64,000 nt of DNA from Gammaproteobacteria bacterium (GTDB taxonomy: Bacteria; Pseudomonadota; Gammaproteobacteria; JAABTG01). Numbering within the stretch: the stretch's first letter is position 1; every line of letters begins with the position of its first letter. The stretch is taken from positions 744,001 to 808,000 of the forward strand of contig JAXHLS010000002.1 of assembly GCA_034522055.1 (NCBI GenBank). The letters run 5' to 3'. Made by a program: the position numbers and the translations under genes. Positions 22,124 through 61,083 of this stretch are shown here, in pieces. The notes beneath the pieces are model-generated. The model did no database searches, was not told where the DNA came from, and saw nothing but the letters and a program-made list of their open reading frames with translations.

Positions 22124-22622
22124 CGCCGCAATCTCCTGACCCTCTGCGTTTCGGTTGCGTGCACAAAGTAGGGTCCCTTCCCTCAGGTCGGGTTATGTTG
22201 TCCCAGACCCTCAATCGGTACTATGAACCCCTCCGACTCCCACGACGGTCGATGACGACTTCGGACTGGCCTTATACGCCACCGTCGGCAGTTCTCACCT
22301 GCCACCGCCGCGGGCCTCCCGCACTGGGACCAATCAACTTCCACCACATGTCACCCGTACTACCCCGGAAGACTCAGTGGGACGCTCTCGTTGTCTCCTC
22401 CCACCAACAGCGGCCTTCCCCGACTGTCCACCGGGTCGGCATCTTCACTTTGTTCACGAGGCTACATCTCGGTTCGCTTGCGCTGCGGCCTGCGGTTTTG
22501 CATCTACGTAACTTACGACCCCCGGTTACCCGGACGCCGCTCCGCGACACTACAAAGGTGTACGAGCAACTCCTTTGGCGGGACTCTAACCCGCTAGTTA
22601 ATCAGCGTGTTACGGCATACGA

Positions 22623-22707
22623 ACAGTTTACTTAATTCGCCACTGCATCGAGCAGCGCCTCTCAAACCAGCTCGAATTAAGTAAACTGTCCCCGAATTAC
22701 GCGAATT
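22623..22707. repeat. Palindromic repeat hosting the intron
   Basis: ACAGTTTACTTAATTCG (22623-22639) and CGAATTAAGTAAACTGT (22673-22689) are perfect 17-bp inverted arms around a 33-nt loop. The right arm continues CCCCGAATTAC-GCGAATTACGG. The left arm continues, beyond the intron, as CCGAATTACCCCCGAATTACC at 20608-20628. The original palindrome is therefore about 120 bp, lies between convergent menE and the thioesterase, and each outer edge contains one extra partial copy of the terminal unit GTAATTCG. It looks like a REP/MITE-type element of RAYT kind. Confidence 0.8.
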
Positions 22708-23075
22708 ACGGCGGGCAGGGGCATGGGGCTGCCGCCGGGGGCCATGGCCGCGTGGACCGTACGGGCGGTGGCGACCACGACTCCGGCCTCGCCGACGAAC
22801 TCGTAGGCGAGGGTAAAGGAGCCCTGGCCCAAGCGCTCCACGGTGACCCGGATGTCCACGGTATCCCCCACCCGCAAGGGGGCCTTGAAGTCCGCCTCGG
22901 CGTGGACGATGGGCAACAGGTACTCACCCTCCTCGAGAATGCGGCGCAGATCCAGGCCCACAGCGGCCATGAAGGCTTGGTAGGCATCGTGGGCCAGCAT
23001 GAAGAGACGGCCGAAGAAGAGGATCCCGGCGGCGTCGGTGTGATGGAGCTGGATCACGGTGGGGTGGCTGAACAT
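22677..23075 (-). CDS. menI: Hotdog-fold acyl-CoA thioesterase, probable DHNA-CoA hydrolase
   Basis: A 132-residue 4HBT-family protein with the N-terminal active-site region HHTDAAGILFFGRLFMLAHDAYQAF (Asp in H-T-D), then ADFKAPLRVGDTVDIRV and G-Q-G-S-F-T-L-A-Y-E-F. Position beside the men cluster suggests that it hydrolyses DHNA-CoA to DHNA before MenA; this is an inference, since the fold also occurs in YbgC-type enzymes. It is convergent with menE. The C-terminal residues V-I-R-V-I-R-G-Q-F-T are encoded by the palindromic repeat, so the original end of the protein has probably been replaced. Confidence 0.75.
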   Translation of the reverse strand: MFSHPTVIQLHHTDAAGILFFGRLFMLAHDAYQAFMAAVGLDLRRILEEGEYLLPIVHAEADFKAPLRVGDTVDIRVTVERLGQGSFTLAYEFVGEAGVVVATARTVHAAMAPGGSPMPLPAVIRVIRGQFT

Positions 23076-25338: not shown

Positions 25339-25442
25339 GAATGGTGAATGGTGAATGGTGAATGGTGAATGGTGAATGGTGAATGGTGAATGGTGAATGG
25401 TGAATGGTGAATGGTGAATGGTGAATGGTGAATGGTGAATGG
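25339..25442. repeat. Tandem heptanucleotide array (GAATGGT)n
   Basis: About 15 perfect copies of the 7-bp unit GAATGGT in 104 bp, lying upstream of argJ, between secA and argJ. The unit length is not a multiple of three. Such uninterrupted short arrays are prone to slippage, so copy number is likely to vary among strains. Confidence 0.95.
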
Positions 25443-25521
25443 CAGGAGTGTAGCCCGATTGGGGGATGTGTAGGTCGGAATTCATCCCGACATCCGGACT
25501 GGCAGCTGCTTTTTTTGCTTT

Positions 25522-25605
25522 TCACCATTCACTATTCACTTTTCACTATTCACTTTCTTTATCTCTATTCACTTTATCTCTATTCACTATTCCCTTCTCC
25601 CATCT
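25522..25605. repeat. Degenerate inverted partner of the heptanucleotide array
   Basis: Plus-strand CACCATTCACTATTCAC and later TCTCTATTCACTTT units are the reverse complement of the GAATGGT/GAATAGT family, in variant 7-10 bp spacing. With the array at 25339-25442 they could form a large stem-loop in the secA-argJ interval. Confidence 0.7.
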
Positions 25606-25615
25606 CACCATTCCC

Positions 25616-56595: not shown

Positions 56596-57043
56596 GCATT
56601 ACGGCATTACGGTGACACTTTACTATTTACACCACTTTGCGGGCATTACGGTGACACTTTACTATTTACACCACTTTGCGGATCATCGTACCCGGCGTTC
56701 CCCACCACGTGACGCAACGAGGGAACAGGGGCATTACGGTGACACTTTACTATTTACACCACTTCCCTGTCGGCTTACGCTACGCGCATGTCTCGGCTCC
56801 CACGGATCATCGTACCCGGCGTTCCCCACCACGTGACGCAACGAGGGAACAGGCGGCAACGGATCTTCATGCAGGATGACGACTATGGGCTTTATCGAGA
56901 TTGGCTATCCCAAGGATGTCGATCGAACGGGGTGGAAGTCTGGTCCTACTGCCTGATGCCGAACCATGTTCACTTGATTCTCGTACCCATTGACGACACC
57001 GGGCTGTCGCGCGCAGTCGGCGAAACGGCACGGGCATTACCGG
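56596..57043 (+). repeat. Ladder of partial RAYT-element 5' ends
   Basis: The terminal sequence GCATTACGGTGACACTTTAC restarts several times in direct orientation: 56596 (8 nt only), 56604 (37 nt), 56643 (about 87 nt, with an internal deletion), 56731 (about 303 nt, into the transposase gene) and 57034 (7 nt), before the full copy at 57044. Each fragment is cut at a different point and followed by the next start. Confidence 0.85.
56788..57029 (+). pseudogene. Truncated RAYT transposase fragment
   Basis: Encodes the first 80 or so residues of the transposase, including Y-C-L-M-P-N-H-V-H-L-I with the HUH pair, up to S-R-A-V-G-E-T, then runs into the start of the next element copy. The catalytic Tyr region is missing, so it cannot be active alone. 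Confidence 0.85.
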
Positions 57044-57842
57044 GCATTACGGTGACACTTTACTGATTTACACCACTTCCCTGTCGGCTTACGCTACGCG
57101 CATGTCTCGGCTCCGCACGGATCATCGTACCCGGCGTTCCCCACCACGTGACGCAACGAGGGAACAGGCGGCAACGGATCTTCATGCAGGATGACGACTA
57201 TGGGCTTTATCGAGATTGGCTATCCCAAGGATGTCGATCGAACGGGGTGGAAGTCTGGTCCTACTGCCTGATGCCGAACCATGTTCACTTGATTCTCGTA
57301 CCCATTGACGACACCGGGCTGTCGCGCGCAGTCGGCGAAACGCATCGTCGGTACAGCGGCTACATCAACGCAAGATTGCGGGTCACTGGCCATTTGTTTC
57401 AAGGGCGGTTTGGCTGCGTGGCAATGGATGAAGCGCACTTGATGGCCGCTTTCCGCTACGTGGCTCTGAATCCCGTCAAAGCGAAGCTGGCGGCGACGGC
57501 GGTCGATTGGCCTTGGTCAAGCGCGCCAGCACATCTCCGGCGCCAAGACGACGGCTTGGTTACCGTTCAACCCCTGCTCGATCGCGTCGATAGCTTCGTG
57601 GAGTTTCTGGATACACCAGAGGATCCTGAACGGGTTGCCGCTCTTACTCGGGGTCAGAGCATAGGGCGACCATTAATGGGTGACCGAGAGCTGGGCGAAC
57701 TCGAGAAGCGACTTGGTCGACCTTTGCGCCCAGGCAAGCGGGGCCGGCCCCCTTCCGAGAAGAAGGACCCGAGGCAACAAAAAACGGTGTAAATCGTAAG
57801 GTGTCACCGTAATGTCGTAATGTTAAGGTGTCACCGTAATGC
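57044..57842 (+). mobile_element. RAYT element, copy 1 (full length)
   Basis: Begins GCATTACGGTGACACTTTAC and ends AAGGTGTCACCGTAATGC, i.e. inverted ends of about 17 bp. It encloses one transposase gene. It ends 5 nt before the sulP stop codon. The tail also has a doubled end (GGTGTCACCGTAATG at about 57800-57814 and 57827-57841). Confidence 0.8.
57148..57792 (+). CDS. REP-associated tyrosine transposase (RAYT)
   Basis: A Y1/HUH-type transposase of the TnpA-REP family, 214 residues from GTG 57148. HUH motif M-P-N-H-V-H-L-I, then ETHRRYSGYINARLRVTGHL with the candidate catalytic Tyr, FQGRFGCVAMDEAHLMAAFR and YVALNPVKAKL. The natural start at 57102 is out of frame because CTCCGCACGG carries one extra base relative to CTCCCACGG in the other copies, which removes the first 15 residues. 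RAYTs cut and join single-stranded palindromic repeats. Confidence 0.85.
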   Translation: MTQRGNRRQRIFMQDDDYGLYRDWLSQGCRSNGVEVWSYCLMPNHVHLILVPIDDTGLSRAVGETHRRYSGYINARLRVTGHLFQGRFGCVAMDEAHLMAAFRYVALNPVKAKLAATAVDWPWSSAPAHLRRQDDGLVTVQPLLDRVDSFVEFLDTPEDPERVAALTRGQSIGRPLMGDRELGELEKRLGRPLRPGKRGRPPSEKKDPRQQKTV

Positions 57843-60130: not shown

Positions 60131-60185
60131 AAATTAAATTACAAATTACGAAATTACGGTGAAATTACGGTGACGCTTTACTATT
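60131..60185 (+). repeat. Perfect ladder of partial element ends (5, 7, 8, 11, 24 nt)
   Basis: Five contiguous fragments, each a prefix of the element that follows: AAATT (60131-60135), AAATTAC (60136-60142), AAATTACG (60143-60150), AAATTACGGTG (60151-60161) and a 24-nt prefix ending CTTTACTATT (60162-60185). The full element starts at 60186. Lengths rise at every step and no base lies between fragments. Confidence 0.92.
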
Positions 60186-60953
60186 AAATTACGGTGACGC
60201 TTTACTATTTACATCACTTCCGTCGGCTTATGCTACACGCATGTCTCGGCTCCCACGGATCATCGTACCCGGCCTTCTCCACCACGTGACGCAAAGAGGG
60301 AACAGGCGGCAACGGATCTTCATGCAGAATGACGACTATGGGCTTTATCGAGATTGGCTATCCCAAGGATGTCGATCGAACGGGGTGGAAGTCTGGTCCT
60401 ACTGCCTGATGCCGAACCATGTTCACTTGATTCTCGTACCCATTGACGACACCGGGCTGTCGCGCGCAGTCGGCGAAACGCATCGTCGGTACAGCGGGTA
60501 CATCAACGCAAGATTGCGGGTCACTGGCCATTTGTTTCAAGGGCGGTTTGGCTGCGTGGCAATGGATGAAGCGCACTTGATGGCCGCTTTCCGCTACGTG
60601 GCTCTGAATCCCGTCAAAGCGAAGCTGGCGGCGACGGTGGTCGATTGGTCTTGGTCAAGCGCGCCAGCACATCTCCGGCGCCAAGACGACGGCTTGGTTA
60701 CCGTTCAACCCCTGCTCGATCGCGTCGATAGCTTCGCGGAATTTCTCGATACACCAGAGGATCCTGAACGGGTTGCCGCTCTTACTCGGGGTCAGAGCAT
60801 AGGGCGACCATTAATGGGTGACCGAGAGCTGGGCGAACTCGAGAAGCGACTTGGTCGACCTTTGCGCCCAGGCAAGCGGGGCCGGCCCCCTTCCGAGAAG
60901 AAGGACCCGAGGCAACAAAAAATGGTGTAAATCGTAAGATGTCACCGTAATGC
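60186..60953 (+). mobile_element. RAYT element, copy 2
   Basis: Begins AAATTACGGTGACGCTTTAC, a variant of the first element's end, and finishes with GATGTCACCGTAATGC. It is nearly identical to copy 1 through the transposase gene and lies in the same orientation, on the far side of sulP and usp. Confidence 0.82.
60241..60930 (+). CDS. REP-associated tyrosine transposase (RAYT), intact
   Basis: A 229-residue transposase starting MSRLPRIIVPGLLHHVTQRG, with HUH motif M-P-N-H-V-H-L-I, HRRYSGYINARLRVTGHLFQ and a basic C-terminal tail (RPLRPGKRGRPPSEKKD). It differs from the copy at 57148 at only a few positions (for example LL for VP, N for D, V for A, S for P, A for V, M for T), and unlike it retains the complete N terminus. 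This is the copy most likely to be active. Confidence 0.92.
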   Translation: MSRLPRIIVPGLLHHVTQRGNRRQRIFMQNDDYGLYRDWLSQGCRSNGVEVWSYCLMPNHVHLILVPIDDTGLSRAVGETHRRYSGYINARLRVTGHLFQGRFGCVAMDEAHLMAAFRYVALNPVKAKLAATVVDWSWSSAPAHLRRQDDGLVTVQPLLDRVDSFAEFLDTPEDPERVAALTRGQSIGRPLMGDRELGELEKRLGRPLRPGKRGRPPSEKKDPRQQKMV

Positions 60954-61007: not shown

Positions 61008-61083
61008 TTTGGGGTCAGAGTAATAATGTCAGGTGGATACGGGTATCTCGAGGAGTCAGCCGAGTTTTTACTCTGACCCCAAA
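61008..61083. repeat. Palindromic element with 16-bp perfect arms
   Basis: TTTGGGGTCAGAGTAA (61008-61023) and TTACTCTGACCCCAAA (61068-61083) frame a 44-nt centre. There is no coding capacity. It resembles the intron-hosting palindrome in layout but not in sequence, so it is probably a third REP/MITE-type family. A CCACGAAA-type repeat follows at about 61115-61145. Confidence 0.8.

Follow-up and report, generated by a model that had tools for sequence, protein, structure and literature searches.

Nested tandem ladders at the ends of TIR-associated Y1 transposase elements as candidate products of nicking and inward synthesis

Ladders of short tandem units are a feature of the ends of elements that carry TIR-associated Y1 (TIRYT) transposase genes, in many genera spread over at least four phyla (as database records name the phyla). 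The units recur and stack, start at one point and end anywhere. On balance, we favour the idea that the ladders are end-anchored tandem duplications produced by a nick, inward synthesis and rejoining, most likely through the element's own Y1 HUH transposase, a series of steps that we infer from the structure of the units.

The window, that is, the whole 64,000-nucleotide stretch of DNA analysed here, contains two copies of one such element (Table 1). Directly upstream of copy 1 lie five fragments of 5, 7, 8, 11 and 24 nt, namely 60131-60135 (AAATT), 60136-60142 (AAATTAC), 60143-60150 (AAATTACG), 60151-60161 (AAATTACGGTG) and 60162-60185 (24 nt). The original prediction described them as exact prefixes of the element that follows, and indeed they match the sequence from 60186 with no gaps, mismatches or spacer bases. 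Scored against shuffled sequence, as had been proposed, this prefix-restart structure stands out: the prefix parse covers 55 nt at copy 1 and at most 10 nt when the 100 nt before it are shuffled 200,000 times. The ladder units of copy 1 share a private variant, GACGC, with their own neighbour. The ORF is flanked by TIRs forming a 32-nt inverted repeat (81% complementary), and TIRs of this family carry ATTACGGTGACRC at either end, inverted; no ladder is present at the right end of copy 1.

The protein encoded by copy 1 had been labelled a RAYT, a label that the evidence does not support. It is a TIR-associated Y1 (TIRYT) protein and not a canonical REP-associated RAYT: it scores 65 bits with NF047646, the NCBIfam RAYT equivalog model, below the cut-off of 80, and no GTAG-tagged REP hairpins lie beside the gene, where the ends have the sequence ATTACGGTGAC and show no folding by themselves. 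Its motifs are H60-V-H62, Y119-x3-NP (Y119VALNP) and W138-S-S, with H60, H62, Y119, N123 and P124 invariant across 20 homologues. The predicted structure (mean pLDDT 87.9), which includes a C-terminal helical region at residues about 141-204, has its best fold match in 4er8 (TnpA_REP; 9.9e-9), followed by ISDra2 and IS608, and a sequence search of solved structures gave no matches. Traits of IS200/IS605 are absent from the window element, which encodes 229 aa, has Y-x3-NP rather than Y-x3-Q and lacks a terminal hairpin.

The second copy, 3 kb upstream of copy 1, spans 56596-57841 including its ladders, which are present at both ends and, on the left, longer than that of copy 1. The left units occupy 56596-56603 (8 nt), 56604-56642 (39 nt), 56643-56730 (88 nt), 56731-57033 (303 nt) and 57034-57043 (10 nt). 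The 88-nt unit has an internal deletion, the junction of which is also found in the 39-nt unit on its left, and the 303-nt unit corresponds to the full element over its first 298 nt, save for two single-base insertions. An inserted base (+1), absent from the 303-nt unit, puts the ORF of copy 2 out of frame close to its start. At the right end, the units are minus-strand prefixes of that end, a mirror image of the left ladder, with the tandem duplication CGTAATGT at 57808-57823. The third ladder in the window, on an ORF-less palindromic element, is a right-end duplication with two copies of CGAATTACG (22693-22710), and an ORF-less element of another TIRYT family, downstream of copy 1, has no ladder. 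Separately, the window holds a tandem heptamer array, GAATGGT repeated 15 times (25339-25442), and, 80 nt past it, a looser array of TTCACTA-type heptamers (25521-25606) that is roughly its reverse complement.

Table 1. Coordinates of TIRYT elements, ladders and transposase in the window
Feature	Position	Strand	Remarks
ORF-less palindromic element (AACAGTTTACTTAATTCG inverted)	22622..22710	.	third ladder in window
Left-end ladder, copy 2	56596..57043	+	prefix parse
TIRYT element, copy 2	57044..57814	+	ORF 57115-57792
Right-end ladder, copy 2	57815..57841	-	units 57815-57822, 57823-57841
Left-end prefix ladder, copy 1	60131..60185	+	exact prefix parse
TIRYT element, copy 1	60186..60951	+	left TIR from 60186, right TIR 60920-60951 inverted
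Y1/HUH transposase, 229 aa	60241..60930	+	PF01797 1e-10
ORF-less element, other TIRYT family (TTTGGGGTCAGAGTAA inverted repeat)	61008..61083	.	TIR as in L029

Elsewhere in the source genome, many more ladder-bearing ends are found, on contigs C4 (25188 and 33792) and C2 (663306, 1362714 and a cluster at 1761-1785 kb). The C2 cluster comprises six element copies in unrelated flanks, with mutual identity of about 96% and homology running from TIR to TIR only; its transposase is 49% identical to the window transposase. Five of the six copies have a left-end ladder, and the ladders vary between copies. The ORF-less element at C2:1773565 bears a ladder at each end, as does the element at locus L052; since C2:1773565 has no ORF of its own, the process acts in trans. 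In each multi-copy family, a constant dinucleotide lies outside ATTACGG at one end (GA for the C2 cluster, and for the window family GC, on the right) and the other end is variable; this one-sided constancy may point to the mobile strand and the position of the cut. Two further arrangements were seen in this genome. The elements L039 and L040 (C4:25160-26000 and C4:33790-34500) have the same left end and an ORF broken at the same point by nearly identical sequences that resemble the start of a group II intron. Two TIRYT copies (L043; C2:1764880 and C2:1765967) lie at junctions of IS21-type istA/istB fragments, with flanks that do not belong together, as if insertion had accompanied rearrangement.

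The survey covered 130 homologues: those of the source genome, 26 loci of named genomes, and the matches from 369 genomes of the class together with 398 of the phylum. A TIR was detectable in 82 of the 130, which places these elements among the TIRYT/TIRtrons as defined by Di Nocera et al. 2013 (PMC3733652). The TIR motif GGGGWSAS occurs in many homologues (GGGGACAG, GGGGTCAG), with GGTGACRC as the variant of the window family. We screened for exact adjacent duplications of at least 9 nt within 200 nt of the gene, a threshold that old or short ladders escape. Such end duplications were present in 58 of 248 TIRYT flanks (36/120 upstream and 22/128 downstream windows), and most TIRYT ends have no ladder that the screen detects. 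The same screen returned 0/44 flanks for IS200, 0/55 for DDE insertion sequences and 2/57 for canonical RAYTs (Fisher p = 2e-5, 2e-6 and 1.5e-4, respectively, against TIRYT), with a background of 0.1-0.2% in dinucleotide shuffles and 0/260 in ORF interiors. Control windows 500-700 nt away gave 10 matches, and in 7 of these the match is a ladder that belongs to a neighbouring TIR element. The original prediction held that related copies lacking ladders would speak against it; some do lack them, yet the 58 positive flanks lie far above all controls. Carriers include Lamprocystis, Novosphingobium and other sphingomonads, Caulobacteraceae, Desulfocapsa, a Planctomycetota MAG and a Bdellovibrio. 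A search of a plasmid collection at 1e-30 found no TIRYT, and a phage collection yielded a single weak match.

Ladders form separately at each insertion. The loci L190 and L191, from two congeneric genomes, are copies of a 1.4 kb element and share 98.8% identity; the left ladder of L190 is one 11-nt unit and that of L191 consists of 37 and 93 nt, and the right end of L191 has more than 10 units around a 70-nt palindrome. Near-identical copies thus carry different ladders, which is the basis for placing ladder formation at the level of the single insertion. A clean empty site was not found for L191 or L190, the far flanks of which match and the near flanks of which are unrelated, nor was a site found for copy 1 in a congeneric genome, where the neighbourhood differs; a strain-level gain of a ladder unit was likewise not found. 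The surroundings of the L190/L191-type element (L331 and L332, on G388:C151 and G485:C72) combine an orthologous distant region with unrelated nearer flanks, which form a hypervariable stretch with many other TIR elements. The element of L190, L191 and L188 (genomes G388, G485 and G404), about 1.4 kb long, also contains small passenger genes, presumably for DUF4160- and DUF2442-like proteins; we found no mention of TIRtrons with passenger genes in the portions of the TIRYT/TIRtron literature available to us.

The anatomy of the units is consistent across loci. Among 45 pairs without gaps, unit starts lie most often 7-9 nt outside the conserved core GGGGWCA/GGTGACA (scored as GGGGWC or GGTGAC), a peak that a second count reproduced; the units are 13 to 112 nt long, except for a single one of 6 nt. 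Overlap at the junction is 0 in 25/45 and 1 nt in 12/45, about the chance level, and so there is no microhomology; contiguity is missed by one base in 7/86 scored pairs. The few bases outside the core vary by locus and, in many cases, from one end of an element to the other. All units of one end nevertheless have them in common, which indicates that flank bases are copied with each unit and that the start lies just outside the repeat. The original prediction of a restart at the element end thus stands as to a fixed start and is to be amended as to its position, which is not the exact end. By inspection, nearly all duplications are element sequence read inward from the start, and no pure flank duplications anchored there were seen. 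The unit ends have no evident consensus. Furthermore, the units bear the private variants of their own neighbours, which argues that they are made locally and repeatedly.

Strictly rising length had been put forward as a record of abortive copying, each attempt going further than the last. The rise is real at 60131-60185 but not general: over all ladders with at least two units, neighbouring units rise in 29 cases, fall in 22 and tie in 5 (p = 0.40). Simulated stacking of random-length end duplications gives similar proportions of rises and falls, with a strict rise over five units in about 1%, hardly above random order. The order of lengths was dropped as a mechanistic signal on these grounds, and the perfect rise at copy 1 is probably luck at one locus. 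What survives of the abortive-copying proposal is repeated short copying from one fixed point. Subterminal hairpins were also considered as a cause; several other families have ends that fold, but those of the window family do not fold on their own, and this cause was rejected.

A fixed start, a random inner end, the lack of homology and occurrence at either end together point to a site-specific nick followed by synthesis. In the proposed scheme, the transposase would cut a single strand at a constant position, some 7-9 nt beyond the TIR core, so that the flank keeps a 3'-OH and the element a 5'-phosphotyrosine; since both ends carry the same inverted repeat, cutting could take place at either. 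A host polymerase would extend the flank 3'-OH inward and displace the 5' end of the element, over a variable distance of usually 5-40 nt and sometimes hundreds. The extended 3'-OH would then attack the phosphotyrosine, or be otherwise rejoined, ahead of a full copy, and the product, flank plus k-nt prefix plus full element, would be a tandem duplication fixed at the next replication. Lengths would rise in order each time a unit is added that falls short of the one on its right, with no need for a progressive process. The 39-nt unit at 56604, which copies the deletion junction of its neighbour, fits this scheme. Cleavage by the homologous TnpA_REP generates a 3'-OH and a 5'-phosphotyrosine, and the 3'-OH has been proposed to serve replication priming or strand transfer (PMC8266576). 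The unit start would correspond to the nick position, a match suggested by the sequences. Strand transfer by the HUH enzyme of IS608 requires a specific sequence at the attacking 3' end; because unit ends lack a consensus, rejoining may be host ligation instead.

Other routes to the same structure seem less probable. A staggered break, in which the transposase nick is joined by an opposite-strand nick k nt inside and the 5' overhangs are filled and blunt-joined, predicts the same product, with a fixed outer start, a random inner end and no microhomology. We nevertheless regard it as unlikely, since it needs a second nick close to the first at each of many events as well as end joining, which the absence of Ku from 25 of the 26 ladder-bearing genomes makes improbable. 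A further route is ordinary replication slippage, or a switch of template, at the terminal repeats, with no part played by the transposase. It would have in its favour that tandem duplications are classic slippage products and that some families have subterminal hairpins. It would not, however, predict the fixed outer start, the junctions lack microhomology, the ends of the window family do not fold on their own, and the restriction to one class would go unexplained, as the ends of DDE and IS200 elements, with repeats or hairpins of their own, show no ladders; slippage is accordingly an account to which we give little credence.

Repeated insertion at the same target beside a resident copy, each newcomer later losing its sequence from an internal point to the far end, has in its favour that the elements move, as their TIR-to-TIR copies in several places show, and that REPIN clusters of Pseudomonas are thought, in the sections of PMC3116915 available to us, to derive partly from insertion beside existing REPINs. 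Every deletion would nevertheless have to stop precisely where the next unit begins and leave no remnant, and the units match the private variants of their neighbours (GACGC in copy 1, the deletion junction in copy 2) rather than those of other copies, which together render this history quite improbable. Repeats are error-prone in assemblies, and an assembly artefact had been named as what could undo the original prediction. It is very unlikely here: independent assemblies of unrelated species in many genera, cultured isolates included, have the same structure in the same place, and 200,000 shuffles never came near 55 nt. Chance or artefact is therefore refuted as a general account, and we attach next to no probability to it.

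The ladders mark one restart position per end, in many families and at scale. For any TIRYT, this position would predict where the enzyme cleaves, with no data beyond the sequence; it would also show which copies have been active in the past, and it suggests that the free 3'-OH of the enzyme serves synthesis as well as rejoining. The ladders are, in addition, a source of short tandem repeats that evolve fast between genes. The TIRYT transposons are widespread in bacteria and have received little study. According to the available parts of PMC6006769 and PMC8266576, TIRYT/RAYT genes look more domesticated than IS-like, and their mobility has never been formally shown. We tentatively raise the possibility that a chromosomal single-tyrosine HUH transposase repeatedly primes synthesis at its own ends, and that the ladders might be fossils of aborted copy-out (rolling-circle-like) transposition in a family regarded until now as domesticated or immobile.

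The closest described systems are TIRYT/TIRtron (Di Nocera et al. 2013, PMC3733652) and TnpA_Y1 subclass 2.1 (Quentin et al. 2018, PMC6006769), with which, as far as the available text of these papers goes, the elements share the Y1 HUH domain, Y-x3-NP, the serine motif, probably the C-terminal extension, TIRs (many GGGGWSAS) and a patchy spread across phyla. Truncated end repeats are not mentioned for these groups in the available text of either paper, and the word 'tandem' is absent from that of PMC6006769; TIR-to-TIR copies and ladders are shown in the present analysis. In a limited literature, available in part and the silence of which is no proof, we found no paper that deals with ladders at the ends of such elements, with ends partly repeated in tandem, or with end synthesis primed by a nick.

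RAYT/TnpA_REP, which is associated with REP and REPIN in E. coli, Pseudomonas and Stenotrophomonas, has the same HUH fold, 4er8 being the best structural match, and TnpA_REP cleaves single strands close to its repeat and joins them again (PMC8266576). It differs in having GTAG-tagged REP hairpins rather than TIRs, and end ladders are scarce there (2/57 flanks). REPIN tandem clusters, as the available portion of PMC3116915 presents them, consist of whole units with flanks, in contrast to the nested prefixes found here. The TnpA of IS200/IS605 (IS608, ISDra2) shares the Y1 HUH chemistry and single-strand transposition but belongs to another sequence class, with end ladders in 0/44 flanks. In HUH rolling-circle initiators and Helitrons, the 3'-OH at an HUH nick primes strand-displacement synthesis, which is the step proposed for the ladders. 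These systems copy whole replicons or elements, and to our knowledge nested end-anchored stubs are not among their products. The transposase class is a known one; the structural signature appears to be new, and the activity that it would record is a proposed one.
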